The notes beneath the pieces were generated by a model, which worked only from the letters and a program-made list of their open reading frames with translations, was not told where the DNA came from and did not search any database. From Procambarus clarkii (taxonomy: Eukaryota > Arthropoda > Malacostraca > Decapoda > Cambaridae): a stretch of 64,000 nucleotides of DNA. The stretch lies in NCBI RefSeq assembly GCF_040958095.1, contig NC_091214.1, forward strand, positions 9,407,871 through 9,471,870, written 5' to 3'. Each line of letters starts with the position of its first letter. Position 1 is the first letter of the stretch. Below are positions 12,001-38,893 of the stretch, one piece after another. A program made the position numbers and the translations under genes.

Positions 12001-14784
12001 TGCTGGGCGCAACACTAGTGGGCGACTGCTGGGCGCAACACTAGTGGGCGACTGCTGGGCGCAACACTAGTGGGCGACTGCTGGGCGCAACACTAGTGGG
12101 CAACCGTTAGGCGCAACACTAGTGGACGACTGCTAGGCGCAACACTAGTGGGCGACTGCTAGGCGCAACACTAGTGGGCGACTGCTGGGCGCAACACTAG
12201 TGGGTGACTGCTGGGCGCAACACTAGTGGGCGACTGCTGGGCGCAATACTAGTGGGCGACTGCTAGGCGCAACACTAGTGGGCGACTGCTGGGCGCAACA
12301 CTAGTGGGCGACTGCTGGGCGCAACACTAGTGGGCGACTGCTAGGCGCGCCACTAGTGGGCGACTGCTAGGCGCAACACTAGTGGGCGACTGCTGGGCGC
12401 AACACTAGTGGGCGACTGCTAGGCGCGCCACTAGTGGGCGACTGCTAGGCGCAACACTAGTGGGCGACTACTAGGCGCGCCACTAGTGTGCGACTGCTAG
12501 GCGCAACACTAGTGGGCGACTGCTAGGCGCGCCACTAGTGGGCGACCGCTAGGCGCAACACTAGTGGGCGACTGCTAGGCGCGCCACTAGTGGGCGACTG
12601 CTGGGCGCAACACTAGTGGGCGACTGCTAGGCGAGCCACTAGTGGGCGACTGCTAGGCGCGCCACTATTGGGCGACTGCTGGCGCGCCACTAGTGGGCGA
12701 CTGCTGGGCGCGCCACTAGTGGGCGACTACTGGGCGCGCCACTAGTGGGCGACTGCTAGGTGCGCCACTAGTGGGCGACTGCTAGGCGCGCCACTAGTGG
12801 GCGACTGCTAGGTGCGCCACTAGTGGGCGACTGCTGGGCGCGCCACTAGTGGGCGACTGCTAGGCGCGCCACTAGTGGGCGACTGCTAGGCGCGCCACTA
12901 GTGGGCGACTGCTAGGCGCGCCACTAGTGAGCGACTGCTAGGCGCGCCACTAGTAGGCGACTGCTAGGCGCGCCACTAGTGGGCGACTGGTAGGCACAAC
13001 ACTAGTGGGCGACTGCTAGGCGCGCCACTAGTGGGCGACTGCTAGGCGCGCCACTAGTGGGCGACTGCTAGGCACAACACTAGTGGGCGACTGCTAGGCG
13101 CGCCACTAGTGGGCGACTGCTAGGCGCGCCACTAGTGGGCGATTGCTAGGCACAACACTAGTGGGCGACTGCTGGGCGCGCCACTAGTGGGCGACTGCTA
13201 GGCGCAACACTAGTGGGCGACTGCTAGGCGCAACACTAGTGGGCGACTGCTAGGCGTAACACTAGTGGGCGACTGCTGGGCGCAACACTAGTGGGCGACT
13301 ACTAGGCGCAACACTAGTGGGCGACTGCTGGGCGCAACACTAGTGGGCGACTGCTAGGCGCAACACTAGTGGGCGACCGCTAGGCGCAACATTAGTGGGC
13401 GACTGCTAGGCGCAACACTAGTGGGCGACTGCTGGGCGCAACACTAGTGGGCGACTGCTAGGCGCAACACTAGTGGGCGACCGCTAGGCGCAACACTAGT
13501 GGGAGACTGCTGGGCGCAACACTAGTGGGCGACTGCTGGGCGCAACACTAGTGGGCGACCGCTAGGCGCAACACTAGTGGGCGACTGCTGGGCGCAACAC
13601 TAGTGGGCGACTGCTGGGCGCAACACTAGTGGGCGACTGCTGGGCGCAACACTAGTGGGCGACTGCTAGGCGCGCCACTAGTGGGCGACTGCTAGGCGTA
13701 ACACTAGTGGGCGACTGCTGGGCTCAACACTAGTGGGCGACTGCTGGGCGCAACACTAGTGGGCGACTGCTAGGCGCAACACTAGTGGGCGATTGCTGGG
13801 CGCAACACTAGTGGGCGACTGCTAGGCGCGCCACTAGTGGGCGACTGCTAGGCGCAACACTAGTGGGCGACTGCTGGGCGCAACACTAGTGGGCGACTGC
13901 TAGGCGCGCCACTAGTGGGCGACTGCTAGGCGCAACACTAGTGGGGGACTACTAGGCGCGCCACTAGTGAGCGACTGCTAGGCACAACACTAGTGGGCGA
14001 CTGCTGGGCGCGCCACTAGTGGGCAACTGCTGGGCGCGCCACTAGTGGGCGACTGCTAGGCGCAACACTAGTGGGCGACTGCTAGGCGCGCCACTAGTGG
14101 GCGACTGCTGGGCGCAACAGTTGTGGGCGACTGCTAGGCGCAACACTAGTGGGCGACTGCTAGGCGCAACACTAGTGGGCGACCGCTAGGCGCGCCACTA
14201 GTGGGCGACTGCTGGGCGCGCCACTAGTGGGCGACTGCTAGGCGCGCCACTAGTGGGCGACTGCTGGGCGCAACACTAGTGGGCGACTGATAGGCGCAAC
14301 ACTAGTGGGCGACTGCTGGGCGCGCCACTAGTGGGCGACTGCTAGGCGCGCCACTAGTGGGCGACTGCTGGGCGCAGCACTAGTGGGCGACTGCTAGGCG
14401 CGCCACTAGTGGGCGACTGCTAGGCACAATACTAGTGGGCGACTGCTAGGCGCGCCACTAGTGGGCGACTGCTAGGCGCGCCACTAGTGGGCGACTGTTA
14501 GGCACAACACAAGTGGGCGACTGCTAGGCGCGCCACTAGTGGGCGACTGCTAGGCGCAACTCTAGTGGGCGACTGCTAGGCGCGCCACTAGTGGGCGACT
14601 GCTGGGCGCAACACTAGTGGGCGACTGCTGGGCGCGCCACTAGTGGGCGACTGCTAGGCGCGTCACTAGTGGGCGACTGCTGGGCGCGCCACTAGTGGGC
14701 GACTGCTAGGCGCGCCACTAGTGGGCGACTGCTAGGCGCAGCACTAGTGGGCGACTGCTAGGCGCGCCACTAGTGGGCGACTGC
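1..14784. repeat. 26-bp GC-rich satellite array, left part
   Basis: About 570 head-to-tail copies of a 26-bp monomer, reading roughly CACTAGTGGGCGACTGCTRG followed by GCGCAA or GCGCGC. Two main variants alternate (GGCGCAAC and GGCGCGCC), and A or G varies after CT. Nearly every copy carries the palindrome ACTAGT. Rare variant monomers recur in blocks: a one-base-short copy beginning ACTATTGGGC occurs at 731, 2004, 3823, 7410, 8761 and 12664, which shows higher-order duplications of a few kb. No coding potential was found; all six frames are simple repeats or broken. A centromeric or heterochromatic role is possible but not shown by the sequence. Confidence 0.97.
14779..14784. other. Target site duplication GACTGC, left copy
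   Basis: The last six bases of the left satellite, GACTGC, are repeated exactly at 27028-27033 just after the inverted-repeat element. In an unbroken monomer GACTGC is followed by TAGGC, and that is what follows the right copy. Removing the element and one copy therefore restores the satellite phase perfectly. Confidence 0.93.
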
Positions 14785-14803
14785 AGTAGTAGGGATGGCT
14801 CCA

Positions 14804-14843
14804 CACAGGGGAATTTTTTTTTCTGGGAGAAAATTCCCCTGTG
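14804..14843. repeat. Perfect 14-bp hairpin 20 bases from the left tip
   Basis: CACAGGGGAATTTT at 14804-14817 is followed by its exact complement AAAATTCCCCTGTG at 14830-14843, leaving a 12-base loop. The same hairpin sits at 26969-27008 in the other arm. A stem this close to a transposon or viral terminus could be a recognition site or a replication structure; that role is inference. Confidence 0.85.
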
Positions 14844-14990
14844 CGCCCCAAGGGTTTCAGGTAAATTTAGAATATCCCCTGTGCGCCCCAAGGGTTTCAG
14901 GTAAATTTAGAATATCCCCTGTGCGCCCCAAGGGTTTCAGGTCAAATATCCCCTGTGCGCCCCAAGGGTTTTCAGGCGAATTTGGGGAGT
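14836..14990 (+). repeat. Subterminal repeats with CCCCTGTGCGCCCCAAGGG core
   Basis: Four copies of the core CCCCTGTGCGCCCCAAGGG begin at about 14836, 14876, 14916 and 14950, with periods of 40, 40 and 34. The first copy overlaps the right arm of the tip hairpin. Arrays of short subterminal motifs are typical transposase or integrase binding sites. The small ORF crossing them (14795-15001) only translates the repeat and is not a gene. Confidence 0.85.
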
Positions 14991-15524
14991 CACAGATTTA
15001 GAATTAGGGAATTCTTATAATGAAAAATAATGTCATACGAGTTTGCTAAAGTTCTTATAAGAAAAATAATTTCCGAGACTTAGAAGTTTGTTAAGGCCTT
15101 ATGGGAGAAATTCAAATAACATGTGTAGCACTTTAGGGCTTCCAGGAGAACTCTACGGACATATTTTACGTGTTTTCAACTTACAAAATCGTCTATGTAA
15201 GCCTTAGTTATTCATATAAATTTAGAAAATCACCTGTGTAAGTCATTGTTTTCAGGGTTTCGTACATCACACCCCCCTCCCTCCCCCCTTACCTCGCAAT
15301 CTGTCGCCTCACCTGTGTTTACTTTAGACGTCAGCCAGCCAGTCGGCTCTTAATCTTAGCGTATCTTATCTTATCCATAATATCTGGACCGTCCCTCCTC
15401 TCTCTCTCTCTCTCCTTTCATTCAGTTCAACTATTTTCCAACATCGTATGTTTGCTCCTTTTCATTAAGCAAGTCAGTATGTTTGCTCCTTTTCATTAAG
15501 CAAGTCAGTTTTACACAAATAAAT

Positions 15525-16360
15525 CATGTTAGTAAGCAAGTTCTAGCTCACGTTCCCCACCTTAGTCCCCTGTCGTATAAAGAATACTATCATTCCAATC
15601 CCTCTAAAATTTAAAAATAATCATATTTCAAATGTAGTTCAATACAGTAATTAGTTACCAAGCTCCAGCTCTTGTCCTCCGCCTTAGCTCTCTCTCGTAT
15701 CTTCGTTAGTATCAGTCCAATTTCCCTGAAATTTCTACCCTCTGTATTTCAGACATAGTTTAGTAAATGCAAACAATTATCAAACTCTAGCTCTTGTCCC
15801 CAGCTTAGTTCATTTGTACAAAATCATTAGTAACAGTCCAATTTCCCTTAAATTGTTACCCTCTGTATTTCAGACACCGTAAATAAAATCAAATAGTTAT
15901 CGAGCTCCAGCTCTCGTCCCCGCCTTAATTCTCTTTCGTATCTTTGTAAATAACCCATCAATTTCCCTAAAATTAAAAGCAGACATACTTCAAAGTTAGT
16001 AAATAAGATCAAGTCAGTTACTGAGCTCCAGCTCTCGTCCCCGCCTTAGTTCTCTTTCATATCTTCGTTAGTATCAGTCCAATTTCCCTGAAATTTTTAC
16101 CCTCTGTATTTCAGACATAGTAAATATGAAGTAAACAATTATAAAACTCTAGCTCTTGTCCTCTGTCCAAGCTCACTTTTGTAAAATCATTACTCTCAGT
16201 CCAAATCACCCAACTACATTTTCAGACATAGTAAATAAAAAACCAGTTCAGTTATTAAGTTTCAACTCTTGTGCCCCAGCTTAGTTCATTTGTACAAGTT
16301 CTTTATTTTCCAACTAAATCACCCTGAGATTTAAGATCACCGTATTTTCTAACGTAGTAA
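15525..16360 (+). repeat. Tandem units of about 120 bp in the left arm
   Basis: About seven diverged units each contain, in order, an AGCTCTAGCTC/AGCTCCAGCTC box, a YCTTAGTTC box, a CAGTCCAATTTCCCT box and a CTGTATTTCAGACATAG box, with spacing of about 115-125 bases. The mirror copy is at about 25456-26291. No open frame runs through them. This looks like expanded noncoding arm sequence. Confidence 0.75.
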
Positions 16361-16661
16361 AATTAATCTGGACATTAGCCTTAGATCATCAGACATAAAT
16401 ATATTCGATCAAGTCCGTCTCCAGCGTATCTCTTATCCGAGTATACACATAACCCCAACCTGTTTAATTATCTTTCACCCCCTCCCACCTTCCTCCATCT
16501 CATCCAAGTCTCGTAAATTTAAAATGTAGCTGTTAATTTGCGTTCTTTCCCCGTTCATAGCATATTCTCTGTAAGTTCAGATCTGTACTTAGTCTTACAT
16601 ATTCTCTACTTCTTTCCAATTTTATACAAGACTTAAACAACTATTACCGTCTCCTCTATCT

Positions 16662-17080
16662 TATTTAAACATGAGTCATATGTAAATATACCCCGACTCT
16701 TTCCATCCAATACAAGTCCTAGCTTGTTCACCGCCCAACTCACTACGCTATTTCTACTCTACATGTTATAGCATGTTTTCCGCTCATCTTGGTACCAACC
16801 CTTACAATCTCTCTCTCATTCCTTTTACATGTCTCAGCATGTCTCAGCATGTTCGCCTCGCATCTTACTACGCTGTCTACTTTACATGTTGTAGCGTGTA
16901 TTACTGTGTCCCATATCTTATTTAAACATGAGTCATATGTAAATATACCCGACTCCTTCCATCCATTACAAGTCCTAGCTTGTTCACCGCCCAACTCTCT
17001 ACACTGTCTACTTTACATGTTGTAGCATGTTTTCCGCACATCTTGATACCATCCCTTACAATCTCTCAATCCTTTACACA
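16662..17080 (+). repeat. Duplicated block of about 259 bp in the left arm
   Basis: The sequence from about 16662 (AAACATGAGTCATATG onward) is repeated from about 16921, including the CTAGCTTGTTCACCGCCCAACTC stretch and the ACATGTTRTAGCATGTTTTCC stretch. The mirror copy lies at about 24736-25154. Short ORFs seen here on both strands are by-products of the repeat, because they read identically in both arms and have no recognisable domain. Confidence 0.75.
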
Positions 17081-17627
17081 TCCCAACTTTCAACCCTTTC
17101 TTACAATTTTCCTCCATCCCTCCGCTACATGTTCTTACCCGTTCATTACAGTCCACTACTTATTCTCTAATCATCTCTGTACTAATTCTCAAAACTAGTT
17201 GGTTCTGTCATTTTAGTAAGTAAGTAAGTAGATCATCGTTATTAACAACGACAACAACAACAACAACAGTAACATTACTAATTCACAGTAAGTTACTACT
17301 GAGCATTTGGTAGTTATCCATTTTCAAATAATGTCAATATAAATCATTCTAAGACATCTTCGTACAATTAAAGATACTTGCCCGTGCACTAAGTCATTAC
17401 TTACAGTAGCATCTTAAGGCATTGTTTTCGTAACTCAGTTTTATTAAACATACACCTTCATTAGTCAAAGGAAAACTTTTCAAGTCATTGTATTCAATAT
17501 TTCCGTTAAACTTACTACATCATGTCATTATTCGGTTTCATAATTAAGTACTTGTTTCAGTCCTCCAATGTAATAAGCAAATTATTCTATTAAGGATAAA
17601 GAAATCTTATTTAGAAGAGGCATTAAG

Positions 17628-17633
17628 TTTATT
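17628..17633 (-). terminator. Polyadenylation signal in the left arm
   Basis: TTTATT on the plus strand reads AATAAA on the minus strand, about 190 bases after the stop of the methyltransferase-like gene that runs outward into this arm. The mirror copy at 24183-24188 serves the IAP gene. Signal use is inferred from position. Confidence 0.55.
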
Positions 17634-17731
17634 ACAACATTTAACGCATACAAGTGTTCTTAGTAGTTATACAGGTATTCAAGAAATCATAAGTGTTCTT
17701 AGTAGTTTTACAAGTGTTCAAGAAAATCATA

Positions 17732-17820
17732 AGTGTTCAAGAAGCAATTATATACAGTTATTCTTAGTAGTTATACAAGTGTTCAAGAAAAACATATACA
17801 AGTGTTCAAGAAATCATAAA
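17732..17820. repeat. Inner-edge short repeats of the left arm
   Basis: Units related to AAGTGTTCAAGAAATCAT and AAGTGTTCTTAGTAGTTATAC are scrambled here. The right inner edge (23887-24084) is built from the same units in different number and order. These repeats mark where the two arms stop being collinear. Confidence 0.8.
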
Positions 17821-17822
17821 CA

Positions 17823-19239
17823 CTATAGTCTTATATAGAAATAAACATTTGAATTTATAAAAGAATTATAAGTAAAACATGTATTTGATTTCACACAATG
17901 AAACTCACTATCCAGCAAGTTAAAAAATCCATCACATGCACAGCATCCCCCTTCCCCTTCTCCAAAATAGATTAGTTTTTGTCCCTTAAATTCCTTTAAA
18001 ACATAGAAAGCATCGCTATAAACATTATCATCACGAATCAATTCAGGCCAGGACATTAGAAGTACTTCTCTGTCATTACAATAAGTCCTAACTGCTTCTA
18101 CAGCATCCATTTGTTCAACCTCCATCCACTTACTCTCACCCATATTCGAGTAATTATCTGTAGCTCGTACCACATTAGTATGTCTTATCCTAATAAGATT
18201 TTCAATAAAGGCCATACCAGAGAAAACACCAAGTACAGGATCCTGTCCTATAAATCTCATCACTGCCTCTATTTCTATCTTTTGGGGGGTATGATATCCT
18301 ATTTCTGGTCTCATCTTTATTAAATTTAACGGAAAAGATGGAAAGCTCTCCTCCATATGATCAATTAAACTCCAATGTTCATCTTCTTCTGTTTTAGGGT
18401 GAATAATACTAAGCTCTTTCACAGTCTTACTATTTACCTGCTGTTGCAGTTCATCCTGGCTCATTATAGTATACACTTCTCGTTCTTCAGAACTCAACTT
18501 ATTAATAAACCAGTTTGCAGCATTTGGAGAACCAATTTCATCCACAAATTTTCTTATAAAAAATTTATCCTTTAAGTTACATCCTATAGGCACTTCTTCA
18601 AATTCTGGAAATATGTATTTAAAACGGGGTTTAGGTCTAAAAGTGCAAATTATTTTATCGCCTTTAAATAACAAAGAAATTTTCTTCATCTCGGCCTTAC
18701 TAGGAGTTTTCGTCAGCAACAACACTTGACAATTCTCATGTTTCTTGAGTACATCTGTAACACTCTCTTTTAAGCTAAATAAGACTATGTCGCATTTTAT
18801 CATTGGAAGTTCTTCTTTCAACTTTATAAAATCATGACCGATCAGTATCATTAAAACATTTTCACTTTTGCTAATAAACTTTGCTAGAGCTGGAACAATG
18901 TTCTCATGCGTACATTTATCAGTATGTGTCATCACTTTATAAGTCCGTTTTTCAGCCAGGGGCATATTCTTCCACAAAACAGTCGAAGCTGGACTTTGCC
19001 ATATAGTTTCTGACACAAGATCAGGCATGCTTCCAAACCCTGGTAGACTCTTCACATCCATCACATGGGGTAGATCTTTAAACAAAGAAAAATACAATAT
19101 TTAACACAGGGACTATTAAATAATCATAATATTTCAAAACTAAAAGATATTCAATAATAAGCAAAAATTATATCACAACAAATATAACGAGTACTGTAAG
19201 TACATCATACAATAATCACTTACTGTATACAGCAGCCAT
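17823..19239 (-). CDS. Methyltransferase-like protein, two exons
   Basis: Proposed exons are 19239-19224 (ATG plus four codons and one base) and 19075-17823. The donor is ACA|GTAAGT, the acceptor is TTTAAAG|AT and the intron is 148 bp. The join keeps frame and gives 422 residues, stop TAG at 17825-17823. Reading the big exon alone has no ATG at its start, which is why I prefer the spliced model. The C-terminal half has the order expected of Rossmann-type methyltransferase-like folds: a GVFSGMAFIENL loop, VVRATDNYS, then LLMSWPELI, then KLIYFGEGEGGC near the C-terminus. The glycine-rich loop is degenerate (GVFSG), so SAM binding is uncertain. The N-terminal 180 residues are not recognised. It is the last of four minus-strand genes and runs outward into the left arm. 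Methyltransferase-like fold is an inference; catalytic activity is not shown. Confidence 0.65.
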
Positions 19240-19291
19240 CGATCCGAGTATGTCTTCTCACTGCTGGACCGAGATGGGGAGTTTATGTCAA

Positions 19292-19298
19292 GATATAT
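19292..19298 (-). promoter_or_regulatory. TATA-like box before the methyltransferase-like gene
   Basis: The minus strand reads GGATATATCTTG about 55 bases before the proposed ATG at 19239. Gene spacing is tight (164 bases to the previous stop at 19404), so each gene seems to have its own promoter. Confidence 0.4.
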
Positions 19299-19403
19299 CC
19301 CGACCTAGCTTATCACATCGGAGATTGTTACGCTCCGCCCCCTCTCTCTTAGCTGTAGTTTCCAAATTAGTTATATGTATTATTTCAGATCTACTAGTTT
19401 TAA

Positions 19404-20030
19404 CTACGACATTCTCTTCCGTTTATTAGATCTACCCTCTACTTGTTTCTTCTCTCTCCCAGTCCCCGTAACATCTTCTCCAAGAGGTATACGAACCATT
19501 AATAATTCTTTTTTATTATTCTTTAAAACATAAGCTAAATGGGCTAGTCCTGGAAAATAGTGTGTCTCCCATTCTTCTTGTTCTTCTTTACTCCATCCTA
19601 TTCCGTCATTAAACCCAATACCATATGGAATAATTATACGCTGGATTAAATTATTATTTCTTGCCTGACAACAAATTTGCCTTATTGCAGATTTAAAACT
19701 CCAACGTTTAATAATATCTTTCTGTAATCCTAGATCTTCATTAGAGCTACTGTATTGAAGTCCTATAATATGAGGTTTTATTTCTGGTTCTGGAGATAAA
19801 GCAAGTACTATACCACCAGGAGTTATATTATTCTGTACCACTTCACACTCGGAAACTTTACTGTAAGGATATTTTTCCCATAACAGTTGTGCAAATCCAC
19901 CAGATAAATTATGAGAATCGTAGACAAGACAGTCTCCAGGTTTTAGAATTTCATCACTAGTAAAATCAGCATCTATAATACACTTATTCAAACGCTTAAG
20001 CTTCACTTGCATGTACATAGAACAATCCAT
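19404..20030 (-). CDS. Macro-domain-like protein, paralogue 1, basic C-terminus
   Basis: A 208-residue protein starting at MDCSMYMQV. The frame is open further upstream to 20126, but the first well-placed ATG is at 20030, just after a TATA-like box. It shares the macro-fold order of the two next genes: GDCLVYDSH, then a G-loop region SGGFAQLLWEKYPYS, then PGGIVLAL, then HIIGLQYSS, then a helix and RIIIPYGIGF followed by WETHYFPGL. This resembles the TARG1/Poa1-type macro domain, which binds ADP-ribose and can remove it from proteins or phosphate esters. The first ligand loop is altered from the usual GxGxA, while the second (GIG) is kept, so activity is uncertain. The C-terminus GREKKQVEGRSNKRKRMS is strongly basic and could be a nuclear signal. 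Single exon. Confidence 0.65.
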   Translation of the reverse strand: MDCSMYMQVKLKRLNKCIIDADFTSDEILKPGDCLVYDSHNLSGGFAQLLWEKYPYSKVSECEVVQNNITPGGIVLALSPEPEIKPHIIGLQYSSSNEDLGLQKDIIKRWSFKSAIRQICCQARNNNLIQRIIIPYGIGFNDGIGWSKEEQEEWETHYFPGLAHLAYVLKNNKKELLMVRIPLGEDVTGTGREKKQVEGRSNKRKRMS

Positions 20031-20065
20031 CTTGAAGTAAGACAGAAAAAGTTTCGTACCTCTTC

Positions 20066-20073
20066 CTATATAC
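20066..20073 (-). promoter_or_regulatory. TATA-like box before macro paralogue 1
   Basis: GTATATAG on the minus strand lies about 36 bases before the proposed ATG at 20030. If used, the leader would be only about 10 bases long, so a start further upstream or a different TATA cannot be excluded. Confidence 0.3.
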
Positions 20074-20215
20074 TCAGAAAAGTAGAGTTGACATTTAGAC
20101 ATTAAAAAGGGAGAAAATAAACACACGAGTTTCTATTTTGTTATTTAATGTGTAAAAATGTACAATGTATTTAATTTGTAAAAATGTACAAAGTATAAAT
20201 TATTTACAGACATTA

Positions 20216-21115
20216 TTATTCCCAATCCATCTTCTCTTCTAAATTTGTAAAACTACTACTAACACACATTGTAACATTAGTATCAACAGACGTAGTAACA
20301 TTAACAGGTGTTGAATTAATTGTATCAGACAACTTAGTGTTGATAGAAGGTGAACTAGCATCAGCGGTAGCAGGCGTAGCATCATCTTCAGGTGTCCTAG
20401 CAGCATCAGTAGCATTAGTTGTGGATCCATTTTGAAGAACAGCAATGTATGGAATCTTATTTTCAAAGATGCCGTGGGTGGATGACTGAGGAGGAACGAT
20501 GTTTTCGGGACGTACTATGAAGAGTACAATACCTCGTTTTCGTAGTTTTTGTCCTATTTTCTCAAGTATAGGCAAATATTTACTTTCCCATACTGCGCAG
20601 TTGTCCAAATAACTTGACATGCCAAACCCATATGGAATAATAATTCTCTTAACACATCTTTTAAGAATGAAAACAAGGGCTTCCTTCAGAGCATTTTCAA
20701 ACCAGCGCCATCTCTGATATTCTGTATCTTTTTCAAGTCCATCGTAAAAATGTTCATCTAAACTTCGTACTTCACACGGAGGATTTTCATATGCTGGTAA
20801 AGTTGCAGGTCTACTAGCAAACTGAGTCACTAAACCAATAATAAGGGGTAGATGGGGATCTTCATCCATCCTGTTGTTAAATTCAGGTGGTTCTCCAATA
20901 TGTATACTGCCAGGGTTACTGCGATAAGATACAACAGCCCTGTTTTTGTAAGGAAAGTTTTCACGATGTAATCTCGCATATGGGTAACGATCCCACAATC
21001 CTTGCACAATTTTACACATTTGTACACTCGTAGCATCAAGATCGTACAATAAACAGTCGTGATTATTGTAGACGGGCAGGGAGGCAAAGTCTCCAATAAT
21101 AGTCTTGATCTCCAT
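20216..21115 (-). CDS. Macro-domain-like protein, paralogue 2, Ser/Thr-rich tail
   Basis: A 299-residue protein starting at MEIKTIIGDFASL. A longer frame to 21238 exists, but the TATA-like box at 21195-21200 and the alignment to the sister proteins favour this ATG. Macro-like landmarks in order: HDCLLYDLD, KIVQGLWDRYPYA (the first ligand loop has lost its glycines), NPGSIHIGE, LPLIIGLVTQFA, a helix around RWFENALKEAL, and RIIIPYGFGM followed by VWESKYLPIL. From about residue 235 the protein changes to a Thr/Ser/Asn/Ala-rich tail, probably disordered, ending KMDWE. The loss at the first loop suggests an ADP-ribose binder with altered chemistry or a pseudo-enzyme. It is followed by 185 bases before paralogue 1. 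Confidence 0.65.
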   Translation of the reverse strand: MEIKTIIGDFASLPVYNNHDCLLYDLDATSVQMCKIVQGLWDRYPYARLHRENFPYKNRAVVSYRSNPGSIHIGEPPEFNNRMDEDPHLPLIIGLVTQFASRPATLPAYENPPCEVRSLDEHFYDGLEKDTEYQRWRWFENALKEALVFILKRCVKRIIIPYGFGMSSYLDNCAVWESKYLPILEKIGQKLRKRGIVLFIVRPENIVPPQSSTHGIFENKIPYIAVLQNGSTTNATDAARTPEDDATPATADASSPSINTKLSDTINSTPVNVTTSVDTNVTMCVSSSFTNLEEKMDWE

Positions 21116-21194
21116 AGCCTTGAATATCCAAGCTTGAAGTAGATTCTGACATCCAAGAAGAGGAGGACACCGTAAGAGATCACTCCGGGGAAGC

Positions 21195-21200
21195 ATATAT
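21195..21200 (-). promoter_or_regulatory. TATA-like box before macro paralogue 2
   Basis: The minus strand reads GATGTATATATGC about 80 bases before the ATG at 21115, inside the 137-base gap after the previous gene's stop (21253). Confidence 0.4.
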
Positions 21201-21252
21201 ACATCTTTAGGCTGCGCGTAGAAACACTGCGCACACAAAAGGTTGCCAAGTG

Positions 21253-21873
21253 TTACTTGCTCTTCCTCTGCATAATCTCCTCGTTAAACAGTAATTTAAC
21301 TTCCACTCCGTAGGGTTTTAACTGTTTATACATATCTTCAATAACAGGAAGATAAGTATTTTCCCAAACCTTATCTCTTCGAACACATGTAATCCCAATT
21401 CCTGTTGGTATTATAACTCTCATAATTTGAGGAGAGCCCTTGATAAAGTTAAATAAATCTTTCATACCATTCTTGAAGTAGACGAGACGATTAATGGATG
21501 TATCTTCGTTTAATCCAGAGAGCATGTTTCTGTCTTTTGAGTTTTCTATAATTCCCTGAGCAATGTTATTACTTTCTATAGGTAATCCAATACCGTATTG
21601 GGTGGCTATAGCAACAATATACGGAAGATTTTCTCCTTTAGAGATATGAATTGTTCCTGGTACTGGACGATCTTCAGGGATACATCTCTTAAGACTGTAC
21701 AAGGGTCGGCGAACATTATAAGCGTCAGCGTGAGAATATTTCTTGGCTAAGTCTAGGGCCATTCCTCGGGGAACACAGGATATACAGTTCACTCCGTACA
21801 CAATACAGGTTTCATTATTACAAAATGAATCGTCGGTTAAATAACCCTGACAAGTTGTCAGAACAGTATCCAT
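21253..21873 (-). CDS. Macro-domain-like protein, paralogue 3, best-preserved ligand loops
   Basis: A 206-residue single-exon protein whose ATG sits in a strong context (TTCACCATGG). Macro-like landmarks: TCIVYGVNC, then PRGMALDLAKKYSHAD (a G-x-A loop close to the family form), VPGTIHISKG, YIVAIATQYGIG, a helix around RLVYFKNGMKDLF, and RVIIPTGIGITC followed by VWENTYLPVIEDM. Of the three paralogues this one best keeps both loops expected to hold ADP-ribose, so it is the likeliest active enzyme. Family knowledge: TARG1-like macro domains reverse ADP-ribosylation, and viral ones counter host ADP-ribosyl signalling. The role here is inference. It is the first gene of the minus-strand set, divergent from the IAP gene across 564 bases. 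Confidence 0.7.
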   Translation of the reverse strand: MDTVLTTCQGYLTDDSFCNNETCIVYGVNCISCVPRGMALDLAKKYSHADAYNVRRPLYSLKRCIPEDRPVPGTIHISKGENLPYIVAIATQYGIGLPIESNNIAQGIIENSKDRNMLSGLNEDTSINRLVYFKNGMKDLFNFIKGSPQIMRVIIPTGIGITCVRRDKVWENTYLPVIEDMYKQLKPYGVEVKLLFNEEIMQRKSK

Positions 21874-21951
21874 GGTGAATTTTTCTTCCTCGTAAGGTAG
21901 TAGATACGATCCAGATAGTCGTAATAATATCCCTAATGTGAGGTCCGCGCT

Positions 21952-21959
21952 CTTATATT
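21952..21959 (-). promoter_or_regulatory. TATA box before macro paralogue 3
   Basis: AATATAAG on the minus strand, the best TATA-like match in the element, about 80 bases before ATG 21873. Confidence 0.55.
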
Positions 21960-22388
21960 GGGGGAAATGTAAAAGTTACCACGTATTTGAATATATTAAT
22001 AAGGATTTTTGTTACCTTAGAGTGATATTATATATGACATTATAACTAATAGTATATTTCATTTTAGGATATAGATGCTTTAAGCATATATTTTAATTAG
22101 ATTAAATAAGAATTTACTACTAAATTATATATATATATCTATCATTATGCACGGCAGCTACGAATAATGACGTAACAGTATACTTTTAGCGAGATTGCCA
22201 AAGTGATGTATTTTTCTAATAAGTCTAATAAATAATGAAAGTAGTTTACTAAGTATTTATATAAGAGCTTTATTTAATTAAGAAACTTTAAGGATTTTTA
22301 AGTAGAGAAGTATTTAGAGGAGATTACTGTCTATTATAAATGAGGAAACTGTTAAATATGTAGCGATGTACGATACTTATTTTAGGGA

Positions 22389-22396
22389 TATATATA
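22389..22396 (+). promoter_or_regulatory. TATA box before the IAP gene
   Basis: TATATATA followed about 30 bases later by TAGTTAGTGC and then by the ATG at 22438. Confidence 0.5.
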
Positions 22397-22437
22397 CTTG
22401 CTTATCCTACTCTAATAGTTAGTGCTGCCCTCACACG

Positions 22438-23894
22438 ATGGATCCTTTGTGTGCCAGGAAGTTTTACAGTATAGAAAGCCTTAAATGTGCAGGAGTTAGA
22501 CTACAAACATTTGTGGATTGGCCCATTAAGTGGTTAAACCCTATTGACTTAGTTGAAGATGGGTTCTATTACCTTCGCAATAGTGATTATTGTTTGTGTG
22601 CATTTTGTTATTGTATAGTAGGTGCATGGATTGTTGGTGATACCCCCAGAAGACGTCATAAGATCATTAATCAAGACTGTGCCTTTATTAGAGGCGAGAG
22701 GAGTGACAATGTTTCTTTAGAGGTGTCTGAGATAGCTTTCAAATATGGACTGGAATTTGTTTCCCATAAAATAGAACTGGGAAATAAGAAAATAAGTGGT
22801 AGTAGTAAGTATATATTCTTATGATGTATTCTTATACCAGTCTTATATACTCTGTACAAAACTTGATTGCTTAAATAGATACTTCTTATTCTTCTAAAGA
22901 ATAATTTACGTAACTACGTTATATTTTTTTAGGTGGTGCTCCTCCTAAGGAAGATCTGGGATTGATCAAATTTAGGAAATCGCTGAATCCAGGATTGGTA
23001 ACTTATAAATCTCGCCTAGAGACATTTGATATGACATGGCCTGGAAGCGTCAAGCAAACTTCTCATGAGCTGGCAGAAGCTGGTTTTTTTTACTGTGGTA
23101 TGAAGTGTTTTAACTATTTTAAACTTAATAGAGTTATAAGTAAAGAAATAATGAATATTAGTTAAAAGATAGTAACGAGATAATGCTGGATTGTTTTATG
23201 GTTTTCAGGTATAAGTGACCACGTCTGCTGCTATCACTGCGCCTGTGGAATACGAAATTGGAGACCAGAAGATGATCCTTGGACGTTACATGCGAGATGT
23301 AGTCCAGAATGTGCTTACATTATTCTTGCAAGGGGCAAGGAATTTGTTAAGAATGCTAGATTGACAATACCATTACCTATAAAACCTATAGACAATGATT
23401 TAATTAATATCTTAATGGAGGGTATGGATAAGTTCAAACATCTGATTCATAAAAAATTAATACCTGTGGAGAGTATAAGATATGCTTTAAGTGAGTACCT
23501 TAAGGAATCCAGAGATTTGTTGCCTTTTATTATACAAAGTAGATGTCTAGAAATCGTGTTGAGGTATATGCAAGAGGGAACAGATATTTATTTACGGGTA
23601 CGGGACTTAATTTATGAAGCAGTTGATGATAAAAAGGAACAAGAAGCTACGCTTGAAGATCTGGGATTGAAAACTTTACCGGAGACTTGTACTAACACTG
23701 ATGAAAACAAGGACTGTATAGAACAATCTTGGGAAGAAGATATTTTATGCAGAGTTTGTATGGATAAAAATATAAATATTGTAATACTACCATGTAAACA
23801 TATGGTGACATGCAGTGGTTGTCTTTTAGCTCTGAAATGCTGTCCAATTTGTAGAGGAAATATTTTATATATAATAAATCCAATTGCTTCTTGA
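22438..23894 (+). CDS. Inhibitor-of-apoptosis protein: two BIR domains and a RING, three exons
   Basis: Exons are 22438-22804, 22933-23097 and 23209-23894. Donors are GTAAGT and GTATGA, acceptors TTTTTTTAG and TTTTCAG, and all phases agree, giving 405 residues. BIR1 spans about residues 20-86 with zinc ligands C54, C57, H74 and C81. BIR2 spans about residues 150-215, is completed across the second intron and has ligands C185, C188, H205 and C212. A C3HC4 RING fills the last 50 residues (CRVC, PCKH, CSGC, CPIC). IAPs bind caspases or IAP antagonists through BIR domains and ubiquitinate targets through the RING, in the cytosol. The DDPWTLHARCSPEC motif of BIR2 is canonical; BIR1 is more diverged. 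It is divergent from the macro genes and runs outward into the right arm, its stop lying in the arm's edge repeat. IAP carriage is common in large insect viruses, but the introns argue for a nuclear, host-type gene structure. Confidence 0.92.
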
Positions 23895-24084
23895 ACACTT
23901 ATGATTTTCTTGAACACTTGTATAACTACTAAGAACACTTGTATATGATTTTCTTGAACACTTATGAATACCTGTATAACTACTAAGAATAACTGTATAT
24001 GATTTTCTTGAACACTTGTATATAATTGCTTCTTGAACACTTATGATTTCTTGAACACTTGTATAACTACTAAGAACACTTGTA
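23887..24084. repeat. Inner-edge short repeats of the right arm
   Basis: Repeats of TTCTTGAACACTTRTATGAT and GTATAACTACTAAGAACACT, expanded by comparison with the left edge (17732-17820). The IAP stop codon TGA falls inside the first TTCTTGAACACTT unit, so the gene's last codons abut the arm. Confidence 0.8.
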
Positions 24085-24182
24085 TATGATTTTCTTGAAC
24101 ACTTGTAAAACTACTAAGAACACTTATGATTTCTTGAATACCTGTATAACTACTAAGAACACTTGTATGCGTTAAATGTTGT

Positions 24183-24188
24183 AATAAA
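24183..24188 (+). terminator. Polyadenylation signal in the right arm for the IAP gene
   Basis: AATAAA about 290 bases after the IAP stop, within the inverted repeat. Its mirror (17628-17633) lies after the outward gene at the other end of the core. Confidence 0.55.
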
Positions 24189-26968
24189 CTTAATGCCTCT
24201 TCTAAATAAGATTTCTTTATCCTTAATAGAATAATTTGCTTATTACATTGGAGGACTGAAACAAGTACTTAATTATGAAACCGAATAATGACATGATGTA
24301 GTAAGTTTAACGGAAATATTGAATACAATGACTTGAAAAGTTTTCCTTTGACTAATGAAGGTGTATGTTTAATAAAACTGAGTTACGAAAACAATGCCTT
24401 AAGATGCTACTGTAAGTAATGACTTAGTGCACGGGCAAGTATCTTTAATTGTACGAAGATGTCTTAGAATGATTTATATTGACATTATTTGAAAATGGAT
24501 AACTACCAAATGCTCAGTAGTAACTTACTGTGAATTAGTAATGTTACTGTTGTTGTTGTTGTTGTCGTTGTTAATAACGATGATCTACTTACTTACTTAC
24601 TAAAATGACAGAACCAACTAGTTTTGAGAATTAGTACAGAGATGATTAGAGAATAAGTAGTGGACTGTAATGAACGGGTAAGAACATGTAGCGGAGGGAT
24701 GGAGGAAAATTGTAAGAAAGGGTTGAAAGTTGGGATGTGTAAAGGATTGAGAGATTGTAAGGGATGGTATCAAGATGTGCGGAAAACATGCTACAACATG
24801 TAAAGTAGACAGTGTAGAGAGTTGGGCGGTGAACAAGCTAGGACTTGTAATGGATGGAAGGAGTCGGGTATATTTACATATGACTCATGTTTAAATAAGA
24901 TATGGGACACAGTAATACACGCTACAACATGTAAAGTAGACAGCGTAGTAAGATGCGAGGCGAACATGCTGAGACATGCTGAGACATGTAAAAGGAATGA
25001 GAGAGAGATTGTAAGGGTTGGTACCAAGATGAGCGGAAAACATGCTATAACATGTAGAGTAGAAATAGCGTAGTGAGTTGGGCGGTGAACAAGCTAGGAC
25101 TTGTATTGGATGGAAAGAGTCGGGGTATATTTACATATGACTCATGTTTAAATAAGATAGAGGAGACGGTAATAGTTGTTTAAGTCTTGTATAAAATTGG
25201 AAAGAAGTAGAGAATATGTAAGACTAAGTACAGATCTGAACTTACAGAGAATATGCTATGAACGGGGAAAGAACGCAAATTAACAGCTACATTTTAAATT
25301 TACGAGACTTGGATGAGATGGAGGAAGGTGGGAGGGGGTGAAAGATAATTAAACAGGTTGGGGTTATGTGTATACTCGGATAAGAGATACGCTGGAGACG
25401 GACTTGATCGAATATATTTATGTCTGATGATCTAAGGCTAATGTCCAGATTAATTTTACTACGTTAGAAAATACGGTGATCTTAAATCTCAGGGTGATTT
25501 AGTTGGAAAATAAAGAACTTGTACAAATGAACTAAGCTGGGGCACAAGAGTTGAAACTTAATAACTGAACTGGTTTTTTATTTACTATGTCTGAAAATGT
25601 AGTTGGGTGATTTGGACTGAGAGTAATGATTTTACAAAAGTGAGCTTGGACAGAGGACAAGAGCTAGAGTTTTATAATTGTTTACTTCATATTTACTATG
25701 TCTGAAATACAGAGGGTAAAAATTTCAGGGAAATTGGACTGATACTAACGAAGATATGAAAGAGAACTAAGGCGGGGACGAGAGCTGGAGCTCAGTAACT
25801 GACTTGATCTTATTTACTAACTTTGAAGTATGTCTGCTTTTAATTTTAGGGAAATTGATGGGTTATTTACAAAGATACGAAAGAGAATTAAGGCGGGGAC
25901 GAGAGCTGGAGCTCGATAACTATTTTGATTTTATTTACGGTGTCTGAAATACAGAGGGTAACAATTTAAGGGAAATTGGACTGTTACTAATGATTTTGTA
26001 CAAATGAACTAAGCTGGGGACAAGAGCTAGAGTTTGATAATTGTTTGCATTTACTAAACTATGTCTGAAATACAGAGGGTAGAAATTTCAGGGAAATTGG
26101 ACTGATACTAACGAAGATACGAGAGAGAGCTAAGGCGGAGGACAAGAGCTGGAGCTTGGTAACTAATTACTGTATTGAACTACATTTGAAATATGATTAT
26201 TTTTAAATTTTAGAGGGATTGGAATGATAGTATTCTTTATACGACAGGGGACTAAGGTGGGGAACGTGAGCTAGAACTTGCTTACTAACATGATTTATTT
26301 GTGTAAAACTGACTTGCTTAATGAAAAGGAGCAAACATACTGACTTGCTTAATGAAAAGGAGCAAACATACGATGTTGGAAAATAGTTGAACTGAATGAA
26401 AGGAGAGAGAGAGAGAGAGGAGGGACGGTCCAGATATTATGGATAAGATAAGATAAGATTAAGAGCCGACTGGCTGGCTGACGTCTAAAGTAAACACAGG
26501 TGAGGCGACAGATTGCGAGGTAAGGGGGGAGGGAGGGGGGTGTGATGTACGAAACCCTGAAAACAATGACTTACACAGGTGATTTTCTAAATTTATATGA
26601 ATAACTAAGGCTTACATAGACGATTTTGTAAGTTGAAAACACGTAAAATATGTCCGTAGAGTTCTCCTGGAAGCCCTAAAGTGCTACACATGTTATTTGA
26701 ATTTCTCCCATAAGGCCTTAACAAACTTCTAAGTCTCGGAAATTATTTTTCTTATAAGAACTTTAGCAAACTCGTATGACATTATTTTTCATTATAAGAA
26801 TTCCCTAATTCTAAATCTGTGACTCCCCAAATTCGCCTGAAAACCCTTGGGGCGCACAGGGGATATTTGACCTGAAACCCTTGGGGCGCACAGGGGATAT
26901 TCTAAATTTACCTGAAACCCTTGGGGCGCACAGGGGATATTCTAAATTTACCTGAAACCCTTGGGGCG

Positions 26969-27008
26969 CACAGGGGAATTTTCTCCCAGAAAAAAAAATT
27001 CCCCTGTG
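26969..27008. repeat. Perfect 14-bp hairpin near the right tip
   Basis: Mirror image of the hairpin at 14804-14843: CACAGGGGAATTTT and AAAATTCCCCTGTG separated by 12 bases, 19 bases from the terminal base. Confidence 0.85.
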
Positions 27009-27027
27009 TGGAGCCATCCCTACTACT

Positions 27028-27033
27028 GACTGC
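27028..27033. other. Target site duplication GACTGC, right copy
   Basis: Directly follows the terminal CTACTACT of the element and continues as a normal monomer (GACTGCTAGGC). Confidence 0.93.
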
Positions 27034-30000
27034 TAGGCACAACACTAGTGGGCGACTGCTAGGCGCGCCACTAGTGGGCGACTGCTAGGCGCAACTCTAG
27101 TGGGCGACTGCTAGGCGCGCCACTAGTGGGCGACTGCTGGGCGCAACACTAGTGGGCGACTGCTAGGCGTGCCACTAGTGGGCGACTGCTAGGCGCGCCA
27201 CTAGTGGGCGACTGCTAGGCGCGCCACTAGTGGGCGACTGCTAGGCACAACACTAGTGGGCGACTGCTAGGCGCGCCACTAGTGGGCGACTGCTAGGCGC
27301 GCCACTAGTGGGCGACTGCTAGGCACAACACTAGTGGGCGACTGCTGGGCGCGCCACTAGTGGGCGACTGCTAGGCACAACACTAGTGGGCGACTGCTGG
27401 GCGCGCCACTAGTGGGCGACTGCTGGGCGCGCCACTAGTGGGCGACTGCTGGGCGCAACACTAGTGGGCGACTGCTAGGCGTGCCACTAGTGGGCGACTG
27501 CTAGGCGCGCCACTAGTGGGCGACTGCTAGGCGCGCCACTAGTGGGCGACTGCTAGGCACAACACTAGTGGGCGACTGCTAGGCGCGCCACTAGTGGGCG
27601 ACTGCTAGGCGCGCCACTAGTGGGCGACTGCTAGGCACAACACTAGTGGGCGACTGCTGGGCGCGCCACTAGTGGGCGACTGCTAGGCACAACACTAGTG
27701 GGCGACTGCTGGGCGCGCCACTAGTGGGCGACTGCTGGGCGCGCCACTAGTGGGCGACTGCTAGGCGCAACACTAGTGGGCGACTGCTAGGCGCGCCACT
27801 AGTGGGCGACTGCTGGGCGCAACACTAGTGGGCGACTGCTAGGCGCAACACTAGTGGGCGACTGCTAGGCGCAACACTAGTGGGCGACCGCTAGGCGCGC
27901 CACTAGTGGGCGACTGCTGGGCGCGCCACTAGTGGGCGACTGCTAGGCGCGCCACTAGTGGGCGACTGCTGGGCGCAACACTAGTGGGCGACTGCTAGGC
28001 GCAACACTAGTGCGCGACTGCTGGGCGCGCCACTAGTGGGCGACTGCTGGGCGCAGCACTAGTGGGCGACTGCTAGGCGCGCCACTAGTGGGCGACTGCT
28101 GGGCGCAGCACTAGTGGGCGACTGCTAGGCGCGCCACTAGTGGGCGACTGCTAGGCACAATACTAGTGGGCGACTGCTAGGCGCACCACTAGTGGGCGAC
28201 TGCTAGGCGCGCCACTAGTGGGCGACTGCTAGGCGCGCCACTAGTGGGCGACTGCTAGGCACAACACAAGTGGGCGACTGCTAGGCGCGCCACTAGTGGG
28301 CGACTGCTAGGCGCAACTCTAGTGGGCGACTGCTAGGCGCGCCACTAGTGGGCGACTGCTGGGCGCAACACTAGTGGGCGACTGCTGGGCGCGCCACTAG
28401 TGGGCGACTGCTAGGCGCAACACTAGTGGGCGACTGCTGGGCGCGCCACTAGTGGGCGACTGCTAGGCGCGCCACTAGTGGGCGACTGCTAGGCGCAGCA
28501 CTAGTGGGCGACTGCTAGGCGCGCCACTAGTGGGCGACTGCTAGGCACAACACTAGTGGGCGACTGCTGGGCGCGCCACTAGTGGGCGACTGCTAGGCGC
28601 AACACTAGTGGGCGACTGCTAGGCGCGCCACTAGTGGGCGACTGCTGGGCTCAACACTAGTGGGCGACTGCTAGGCGCAACACTAGTGGGCGACTGCTAG
28701 GCGCAACACTAGTGGGCGACCGCTAGGCGCGCCACTAGTGGGCGACTGCTGGGCGCGCCACTAGTGGGCGACTGCTAGGCGCGCCACTAGTGGGCGACTG
28801 CTGGGCGCAACACTAGTGGGCGACTGCTAGGCGCAACACTAGTGGGCGACTGCTGGGCGCGCCACTAGTGGGCGACTGCTAGGCGCGCCACTAGTGGGCG
28901 ACTGCTGGGCGCAGCACTAGTGGGCGACTGCTAGGCGCGCCACTAGTGGGCGACTGCTGGGCGCAGCACTAGTGGGCGACTGCTAGGCGCGCCACTAGTG
29001 GGCGACTGCTAGGCACAATACTAGTGGGCGACTGCTAGGCGCGCCACTAGTGGGCGACTGCTAGGCGCGCCACTAGTGGGCGACTGCTAGGCGCGCCACT
29101 AGTGGGCGACTGCTAGGCGCGCCACTAGTGGGCGACTGCTAGGCACAACACAAGTGGGCGACTGCTAGGCGCGCCACTAGTGGGCGACTGCTAGGCGCAA
29201 CTCTAGTGGGCGACTGCTAGGCGCGCCACTAGTGGGCGACTGCTAGGCGCGCCACTAGTGGGCGACTGCTAGGCGCAACACTAGTGTTCGACTGCTGGGC
29301 GCAACACTAGTGGGCGACTGCTAGGCGCAACACTAGTGGGCGACCACTAGGCGCAACATTAGTGGGCGACTGCTAGGCGCGCCACTAGTGGGCGACTGCT
29401 AGGCGCGCCACTAGTGGGCGACTGCTAGGCGCAACACTAGTGGGCGACTGCTGGGCGCAACACTAGTGGGCGACTGCTAGGCGCAACACTAGTGGGCGAC
29501 CACTAGGCGCAACATTAGTGGGCGACTGCTAGGCGCAACACTAGTGGGCGACTGCTAGGCACAACACTAGTGGGCGACTGCTGGGCGCAACACTAGTGGG
29601 CGACTGCTGGGCGCAACACTAGTGGGCGACTGCTAGGCGCGCCACTAGTGGGCGACTGCTAGGCGCAACACTAGTGGGCGACTGCTGGGCGCAACACTAG
29701 TGGGCGACTGCTGGGCGCAACACTAGTGGGCGACTGCTGGGCGCAACACTAGTGGGCGACTGCTAGGCGCAACACTAGTGGGCGACTGCTGGGCGCAACA
29801 CTAGTGGGCGACTACTAGGCGCGCCACTAGTGGGCGACTGCTAGGCGCAACACTAGTGGGCGACTGCTAGGCGCGCCACTAGTGGGCGACCGCTAGGCGC
29901 AACACTAGTGGGCGACTGCTAGGCGCGCCACTAGTTGGCGACTGCTGGGCGCAACACTAGTGGGCGACTGCTAGGCGCAACACTAGTGGGCAACCGCTAG

Positions 30001-33000: not shown

Positions 33001-34700
33001 GTGGGCGACTGCTAGGCGCGCCACTAGTGGGCGACTGCTAGGCGCGCCACTAGTGGGCGACTGCTGGGCGCAACACTAGTGAGCGACTGCTAGGCGCGCC
33101 ACTAGTGGGCGACTGCTAGGCGCGCCACTAGTGGGCGACTGCTGGGCGCAACACTAGTGGGCGACTGCTAGGCGTGCCACTAGTGGGCGACTGCTAGGCG
33201 CGCCACTAGTGGGCGACTGCTAGGCGCGCCACTAGTGGGCGACTGCTAGGCACAACACTAGTGGGCGACTGCTAGGCGCGCCACTAGTGGGCGACTGCTA
33301 GGCGCGCCACTAGTGGGCGACTGCTAGGCACAACACAAGTGGGCGACTGCTAGGCGCGCCACTAGTGGGCGACTGCTAGGCGCAACTCTAGTGGGCGACT
33401 GCTAGGCGCGCCACTAGTGGGCGACTGCTGGGCGCAACACTAGTGGGCGACTGCTGGGCGCGCCACTAGTGGGCGACTGCTAGGCGCGTCACTAGTGGGC
33501 GACTGCTGGGCGCGCCACTAGTGGGCGACTGCTAGGCGCGCCACTAGTGGGCGACTGCTAGGCGCAGCACTAGTGGGCGACTGCTAGGCGCGCCACTAGT
33601 GGGCGACTGCTAGGCACAACACTAGTGGGCGACTGCTGGGCGCGCCACTAGTGGGCGACTGCTAGGCGCAACACTAGTGGGCGACTGCTAGGCGCGCCAC
33701 TAGTGGGCGACTGCTGGGCGCAACACTAGTGGGCGACTGCTAGGCGCAACACTAGTGGGCGACTGCTAGGCGCAACACTAGTGGGCGACCGCTAGGCGCG
33801 CCACTAGTGGGCGACTGCTGGGCGCGCCACTAGTGGGCGACTGCTAGGCGCTCCACTAGTGGGCGACTGCTGGGCGCAACACTAGTGGGCGACTGCTAGG
33901 CGCAACACTAGTGGGCGACTGCTGGGCGCGCCACTAGTGGGCGACTGCTAGGCGCGCCACTAGTGGGCGACTGCTGGGCGCAGCACTAGTGGGCGACTGC
34001 TAGGCGCGCCACTAGTGGGCGACTGCTGGGCGCAGCACTAGTGGGCGACTGCTAGGCGCGCCACTAGTGGGCGACTGCTAGGCACAATACTAGTGGGCGA
34101 CTGCTAGGCGCGCCACTAGTGGGCGACTGCTAGGCGCGCCACTAGTGGGCGACTGCTAGGCGCGCCACTAGTGGGCGACTGCTAGGCACAACACAAGTGG
34201 GCGACTGCTAGGCGCGCCACTAGTGGGCGACTGCTAGGCGCAACTCTAGTGGGCGACTGCTAGGCGCGCCACTAGTGGGCGACTGCTGGGCGCAACACTA
34301 GTGGGCGACTGCTGGGCGCGCCACTAGTGGGCGACTGCTAGGCGCGTCACTAGTGGGCGACTGCTAGGCGCGCCACTAGTGGGCGACTGCTAGGCGCAGC
34401 ACTAGTGGGCGACTGCTAGGCGCGCCACTAGTGGGCGACTGCTAGGCACAACACTAGTGGGCGACTGCTAGGCGCGCCACTAGTGGGCGACTGCTAGGCG
34501 CAACTCTAGTGGGCGACTGCTAGGCGCGCCACTAGTGGGCGACTGCTGGGCGCAACACTAGTGGGCGACTGCTAGGCGCAACTCTAGTGGGCGACTGCTA
34601 GGCGCAACTCTAGTGGGCGACTGCTAGGCGCGCCACTAGTGGGCGACTGCTGGGCGCGCCACTAGTGGGCGACTGCTAGGCGCGCCACTAGTGGGCGACC
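27034..34700. repeat. 26-bp GC-rich satellite array, right part
   Basis: About 295 copies, same monomer and orientation as 1-14784. Variant monomers show that 29990-32830 is a copy of 11815-14784. Matching markers are offset by 18176 bases at 11831/30007 and at 12664/30840, and by 18046 at 14784/32830, so the right copy lacks about five monomers. The array ends abruptly in GTGGGCGACCGAAGCTT. No genes are seen. Confidence 0.97.
32825..32830. other. Paralogous empty insertion site
   Basis: The monomers before this GACTGC (CGCAGCAC then CGCGCCAC) match those before the left junction at 14784. The monomers after it (TAGGCACAACAC, then CGCGCC, then CGCAACTCT) match those after the right junction at 27033 for about 130 bases. 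This is the duplicated target without the element. A second similar context is at 34437-34442. Confidence 0.85.

Positions 34701-37825: not shown

Positions 37826-38893
<1,068 letters not shown>

Follow-up and report, generated by a model that had tools for sequence, protein, structure and literature searches.

Organization of the element

The sequence studied here, hereafter the window, is a stretch of 64,000 nucleotides of the Procambarus clarkii genome (contig NC_091214.1, positions 9,407,871 to 9,471,870), in which positions 14785–27027 are occupied by an element of 12,243 bp with exact borders, carrying five genes between long inverted arms. It lies in an array of 26-bp satellite units that, the element excepted, extends throughout positions 1–34699 and is split by the insertion into a left (1–14784) and a right (27028–34699) part. 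Each satellite unit holds the hexamer GACTGC a single time, whereas at the insertion it is present twice, its two perfectly matching copies flanking the element at 14779–14784 and 27028–27033; it is therefore a genuine 6-bp target-site duplication.

The element begins with AGTAGT and ends with ACTACT. Its left arm (14785–17807, plus strand) and right arm (23933–27027, minus strand) are identical but for a single mismatch and five indels (1–43 bp), three of which fall within an inner tandem repeat. A preliminary description of this DNA had given the same borders, perfect 6-bp duplication, AG...CT ends and five genes, all of which the sequence bears out; it had put the arms at about 2.95 kb, and they are indeed long and near-identical but slightly longer, at ~3.0 kb. 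The ends and duplication are not due to chance, as the 11 family copies described below all share the 10-base tips and have perfect 6-bp duplications.

Cargo genes

The gene set comprises one gene for a protein of 412/422 aa, labelled 'MT', three mutually related genes, MAC1 to MAC3, and one IAP gene. The main exon of 'MT' (17823–19075, minus strand) encodes the 412-aa core, which is 98% identical to a predicted P. clarkii protein. A short first exon (MAAVY, 19224–19239, minus strand) with a GTAAGT donor, placed by means of P. clarkii protein P0004, fits a predicted crayfish protein. The product had been called methyltransferase-like, a label left unconfirmed by our searches: no methyltransferase family was matched, and the C-terminal part matched only phrog_19090 (1.7e-10, 4.5e-11), a family of unknown function. 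No relatives of the 412-aa protein were confirmed in viral contigs and none were found in phage records.

MAC3 (19404–20030), MAC2 (20216–21115) and MAC1 (21253–21873; 206 aa) follow on the minus strand, MAC2 and MAC3 being 27–29% identical to MAC1. A structure model of MAC1 of middling quality resembles TARG1/DarG/MACROD-type macrodomains; a second prediction, made with additional sequences, was poorer and was set aside. The proteins had been called macro-like in the preliminary description. In profile searches, none of 13 proteins, of which nine came from three element lineages (three per lineage) and four from databases, matched Pfam Macro; a macro fold is a candidate assignment with moderate support from the modelling. 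No relatives of the macro alignment were confirmed in viral contigs. A weak PHROG match of MAC1 named 'phosphatase' (0.042; 0.34 for MAC1 of the C64 locus described below) was disregarded, PDB sequence searches returned weak senseless matches or none, and a PADLOC search gave no match. A copy of MAC1 forms the end of a P. clarkii protein named 'ionotropic receptor 93a-like' (P0007), probably because a false gene model runs into an element, or else as a real fusion.

The IAP gene lies on the plus strand in three exons, 22438–22804 (first BIR), 22933–23097 (first half of the second BIR) and 23209–23894 (second half of this BIR and the RING finger). This structure, which amends the earlier gene call, was built from the BIR/BIR/RING matches and GT..AG signals. 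The first BIR was matched at 2.5e-14, the BIR split over two exons at 3.5e-06 and 7.4e-10, and the RING finger at 1.3e-12. Judged by these domains, the identification of the gene as an IAP, already made in the preliminary description, is certain.

Copies in the genome

The genome (4.03 Gb, 2308 contigs) was searched for further copies; only the best candidates were scored, so that all copy counts given here are lower bounds. A query of 1001 bases from the start of the arm gave at least 75 matches (best 40 of 3532 candidates scored); the other scored copies are 88–99% identical to the window in the first 1 kb. Twelve arm pairs were visible, one of them the window element; ten more were examined, and C62 was left out. 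All 11 copies have the tips AGTAGTAGGG...CCCTACTACT and perfect 6-bp duplications, with lengths of 12,236–13,755 bp; the duplications at C23 and C8 are weak evidence, as the flank there is a simple repeat. Together with elements of the two lineages treated below, the (AGT)2//(ACT)2 end motif and a 6-bp duplication were present in 14 of 14 elements, including two PolB-bearing Polintons.

The copies fall into two classes. Five of the 11 (window, C23, C185, C59 and C45) contain the five genes between arms of ~3.0–3.5 kb, longer and with repeats in C59. The other six (C36, C8, C1565, C307, C27 and C2) have none of the five cargo genes. Five of these six have arms of ~6.1–6.4 kb that are 99.8–100% identical and leave a middle of just 0.4–0.6 kb; since the arms extend to near the middle, the entire element is one giant palindrome, and these near-complete palindromes measure 12.8–13.4 kb. 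In C307 the outer 3.7 kb of the arms is identical and the inner part 94–97% identical, while in the ten other copies arm identity is 99.4–100%. Because the arms are equal within copies and diverged between copies, they would be equalised in each copying round, and several diverged lineages would have inserted recently.

The 412-aa gene was scored at no fewer than 101 places, spread over 69 contigs, and its frame is stop-free at 93 of them. Counted independently of this, 93 of these 101 places had MAC1 within 6 kb, on the same strand and in the same order. The ratio of nonsynonymous to synonymous substitutions (dN/dS) was 0.31–0.61 in 14 of 15 pairs formed by the window and five diverged copies; the remaining pair had a dS of 0 and five amino-acid changes. 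In a plain simulation, 20 or 50 random substitutions left 36% or 10% of frames stop-free. MAC1 was scored at 150 places or more, 130 at 79% identity or higher and 20 at 62–63%, with stops in 10 of the 150. Selection keeps the cargo genes open, and the mobile element that carries them numbers around a hundred copies or more.

Terminal hairpin

Each arm contains a hairpin close to the tip, at 14804–14843 on the left and, as its mirror placed by arm symmetry, at 26969–27008 on the right, with a 14-bp stem that shows compensatory changes between copies. It was analysed in 11 tips, 10 of them distinct, from the window, nine copies and the C92 Polinton described below; C2, whose tip is diverged, was omitted. 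Over the stem, 96.4% of cells were paired, against 32–63% in controls with the stem slid along the sequence. Changes on both sides were found in six of the 14 stem pairs (as high in 1 of 500 shuffles), the other eight being invariant, and there were 14 compensated cells where shuffles gave 4.0, a number that none of 500 shuffles reached, although related tips can exceed shuffles without any structure and the stem was first spotted in these same sequences. The slid controls retain the relatedness of the tips and yet fall far below the stem. The stem of C59/C45 is mismatched. The hairpin is probably under structural constraint, as DNA or as RNA, and may be a recognition or replication signal. 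At 14835–14983 the 3' half of the hairpin is repeated in tandem. By eye, the arm of the C92 Polinton (from 4726 of the region read) likewise repeats this half as a tandem unit of ~40 bp.

A Polinton with the same ends

Vertebrate Mavericks are described with a (AGT)2//(ACT)2 end motif and 6-bp duplications (PMC8097293), and the Polinton gene set is outlined as PolB, RVE integrase, ATPase, protease and capsid (PMC4028283). The window element has the same end motif, a 6-bp duplication and long terminal inverted repeats, as Polintons do. Neither PolB, RVE integrase, ATPase, protease nor capsid was found in it, and it is therefore not an autonomous Polinton.

The polymerase profile PF03175 was scored at 91 or more places in the genome, two of which, C35 and C92, were opened. 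The C92 Polinton (13,572 bp, duplication CCTGGC) starts with the tip AGTAGTAGGG, followed by the hairpin of the window element. The 10-base tips of the two are identical, and the arms agree at 85% over the first ~630 bp. Its PolB scored 44 bits over part of the profile, above the cut-off, and the whole PolB frame had no Pfam match at E 0.1 in a filtered scan; an A32-type packaging ATPase and an integrase with chromodomain were above their cut-offs. The C35 Polinton, read except for short stretches, is 16,287 bp long, with an arm of ~1.05 kb, the tip AGTAGTGAAT and the duplication GAGGGG, and encodes PolB (77.5 bits) and an integrase core with chromodomain. In both Polintons a protease-like frame matched Peptidase_C48 below the cut-off. 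A frame of 442–467 aa in both is a putative capsid protein; it matched nothing sensible in Pfam, PHROGs or PDB, and no relative was confirmed in viral contigs.

The two kinds of element do not overlap in gene content. Thirteen cargo queries had no match in the sequenced pieces examined of the two Polintons, and nine Polinton queries had none in the window element, the ten further copies of its family (the six gene-less ones included) or the C15 element described below. As the tip, the hairpin and ~630 bp of arm are common to the C92 Polinton, the comparison supports the view that the window element is a non-autonomous Polinton derivative, probably mobilised in trans by Polinton proteins. The preliminary description had proposed just such an element with cell-death cargo, and the PolB- and integrase-bearing Polinton with the same tip and hairpin, which it had suggested looking for, is now at hand. 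No DDE transposase was noticed in the window element or in the frames of at least 90 aa of six gene-less copies, no transposase profile search having been made; the four other cargo copies were checked just for known genes.

At C8:40311700-40314300 a cargo element and a probable Polinton of the same tip family have separate tips and are spaced by only ~160 bp. From 150 MAC1 and 91 PolB places in 4 Gb, 0.1–0.2 such neighbours within 15–25 kb are expected, and one was found; a shared target preference may account for it. That cargo and Polinton form one long element was considered and rejected: just one of 150 MAC1 places, that at C8, is less than 25 kb from any of the 91 PolB places, and none of 107 other macro places (50 C15-lineage rows, 49 and 8) is near PolB.

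A second pairing and further lineages

A second cargo element, C15, was opened from the MAC1 group at 62% identity. It is 14,691 bp long, with the duplication TGGGTA and the tip AGTAGTGAAT. Its module has the order of the window element, with identities of 55, 56 and 36% for the IAP exons, 62% for MAC1 and 44% for MAC3; MAC2 is 72% identical over 54 aa and 43% over the rest. In place of the 412-aa gene it has a different open frame of 202 aa (2221–2826, minus strand of the region read) with no Pfam match. A MAC3 match lies within 5 kb at all 20 scored MAC1 places of this group (partial MAC3 rows included).

The arms of C15 and the window element do not match each other. The C15 arm matches the C35 Polinton, at 98% over ~396 bp on the left and 96–99.6% on the right. 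As C15 shares the ends of C35 and the window element those of C92, there are two Polinton lineages, each with a cargo partner. Between C92 and C35 identity is 54% for PolB (over 1210 aa), 63% for the integrase, 56% for the capsid-like, 42% for the protease-like and 48 and 38% for two other frames, and by these values divergence between the two Polintons is of about the same degree as between the two cargo modules.

A third group (MAC3 40–44%, 49 places) has at C64 the triad MAC1-MAC2-MAC3 in order, at 50, 41 and 37% identity to the window; in the 8 kb read there, neither an IAP nor the ends of the element were seen. A group at 51–52% identity to the C15 MAC3 was scored at eight places (C399, C12, C28, C46, C44, C33, C2 and C25) and is likely a fourth cargo lineage.

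Two features lie elsewhere in the window. A tandem unit of ~260 bp at 37944–38893 is 91% identical to a unit beside the C64 triad (about 293–1311 of the region read). To the right of the satellite, positions 38850–63930 appear, by eye from their frames, to be a nest of retroelements, with integrase/reverse transcriptase frames of long terminal repeat type and several endonuclease/reverse transcriptase frames of long interspersed nuclear element type, some long and open (980 and 917 aa).

Interpretation and alternative explanations

We propose, with a probability of roughly 0.77, that the window element is a non-autonomous Polinton/Maverick derivative acting as a long-term satellite, so that cargo element and Polinton form helper-satellite pairs. 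The Polinton integrase would recognise the AGTAGT tip and insert the cargo element, and the protein-primed Polinton polymerase would copy it as a linear molecule, equalising the arms in each round; packaging in the Polinton capsid is possible. Gene-less palindromes could arise by snap-back copying of the displaced strand, as in defective adenovirus genomes. The similar lengths of coding and gene-less forms, in 11 copies only, may reflect an upper bound on size, for instance one set by a capsid. The IAP would block caspase-driven death where the Polinton is active, and the macro proteins would bind ADP-ribose marks that the host response sets, or take them off, with both elements benefiting; action of these proteins on host death and ADP-ribose signalling during Polinton activity is the most likely role of the cargo.

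The same pairs could be read in another way, in which crayfish polintoviruses are two-segment viruses, with a machinery segment (PolB, integrase and capsid) and an accessory segment bearing the IAP and ADP-ribose triad, both needed for infection. The segments would have the same ends and near-equal size and would have remained associated while at least two virus lineages diverged, and the 12–13-kb palindromes would be integrated defective genomes filling the same particle. Two Polinton/cargo pairs with common ends (arm identity of 85% in the window element and 98% in C15), complementary genes, similar divergence and similar sizes (13.6 versus 12.2–13.8 kb; 16.3 versus 14.7 kb) are in keeping with this, and an origin of bidnavirus VD2 by such a route was proposed by Krupovic & Koonin 2014 (as outlined in PMC4061559). 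We consider it unlikely, if worth serious attention: it is built on two pairs only, nothing points to a particle, to packaging or to a dependence of the Polinton on the cargo, the Polintons seem complete in themselves, and the cargo genes have introns, whereas intact vertebrate Maverick open reading frames are described without them (PMC8097293). The introns and the host-like character of the genes would suit a selfish passenger, a Polinton deletion derivative that took up host immune genes on one occasion and owes its copying solely to its ends, its genes having no role, and the gene-less copies of the family have spread too. Such a passenger is hard to reconcile with 93 of 101 stop-free places, dN/dS of 0.31–0.61, and a module kept with its order in a second lineage (MAC1 62%) and as a macro triad in a third (MAC1 ~50%), and we hold it to be quite improbable.

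Two further explanations appear far weaker than these. The element could belong to another class, as a different DDE transposon or part of an endogenous nimavirus, and resemble Polintons at its ends by chance; crustacean nimaviruses have IAP genes, some intron-bearing eukaryotic-like genes and insertions in microsatellite or ribosomal DNA, but those described carry tyrosine recombinases or Ginger2 and have different ends (PMC10871703). A 10-base tip, a hairpin and 630 bp of arm common with one Polinton, and a sister element at 98% over ~396 bp with another, make coincidence very improbable, and no foreign transposase was noticed in the copies with frames listed. Long near-perfect palindromes are hard to assemble, so the inverted arms could be an assembly artefact; with eleven copies at different places, all of which have a duplication, arm variants of their own and an intact second end, this is barely credible.

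Comparison with known systems

No published description of such an element was found in a search by title or abstract opening, which left subscription journals and Repbase uncovered. Like Polintons/Mavericks (polintoviruses, adintoviruses), the window element has AGTAGT...ACTACT ends, a 6-bp duplication, long arms, and the tip with its hairpin; unlike them, it has five unrelated genes, two with introns, and no machinery gene was found in it. As in virophages and satellite viruses, the cargo element would depend on the machinery of another element. Virophages carry their own capsid genes, whereas none was found here. In Bidnaviridae, which have two segments and are partly polintovirus-derived, the second segment is thought to have retained its ends and replaced its genes, beside a PolB-bearing molecule (as summarised in PMC4061559), and up to twelve segments are reported for some relatives (as summarised in PMC11071296); the crayfish pair, by contrast, consists of large integrated elements known from sequence alone. 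Endogenous nimaviruses (majaniviruses), likewise integrated DNA of viral origin, also have IAP genes and some host-like genes with introns, but are far larger (one of 579 kb, others of 265–285 kb), with other ends and recombinases (PMC10871703); genes of white spot syndrome virus type were not searched for in the crayfish element. Foldback/Galileo-type transposons likewise have very long, internally repetitive inverted arms, but the window element differs in its 6-bp duplication, Polinton tip and coding module under selection.

Polintons are known mainly as carriers of their own machinery, and their virus-like behaviour in animals is an open question. The crayfish pairs offer a concrete system for testing such a life cycle, and the co-varying hairpin and gene-less palindromes offer a way into the recognition and copying of Polinton ends. 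That a second, long-separated cargo version has the ends of another Polinton suggests that the partnership is lasting. If true, a satellite class that pairs with two Polinton lineages and carries an anti-death and, probably, an ADP-ribose module would strongly hint that the life cycle is virus-like and faces host defence.

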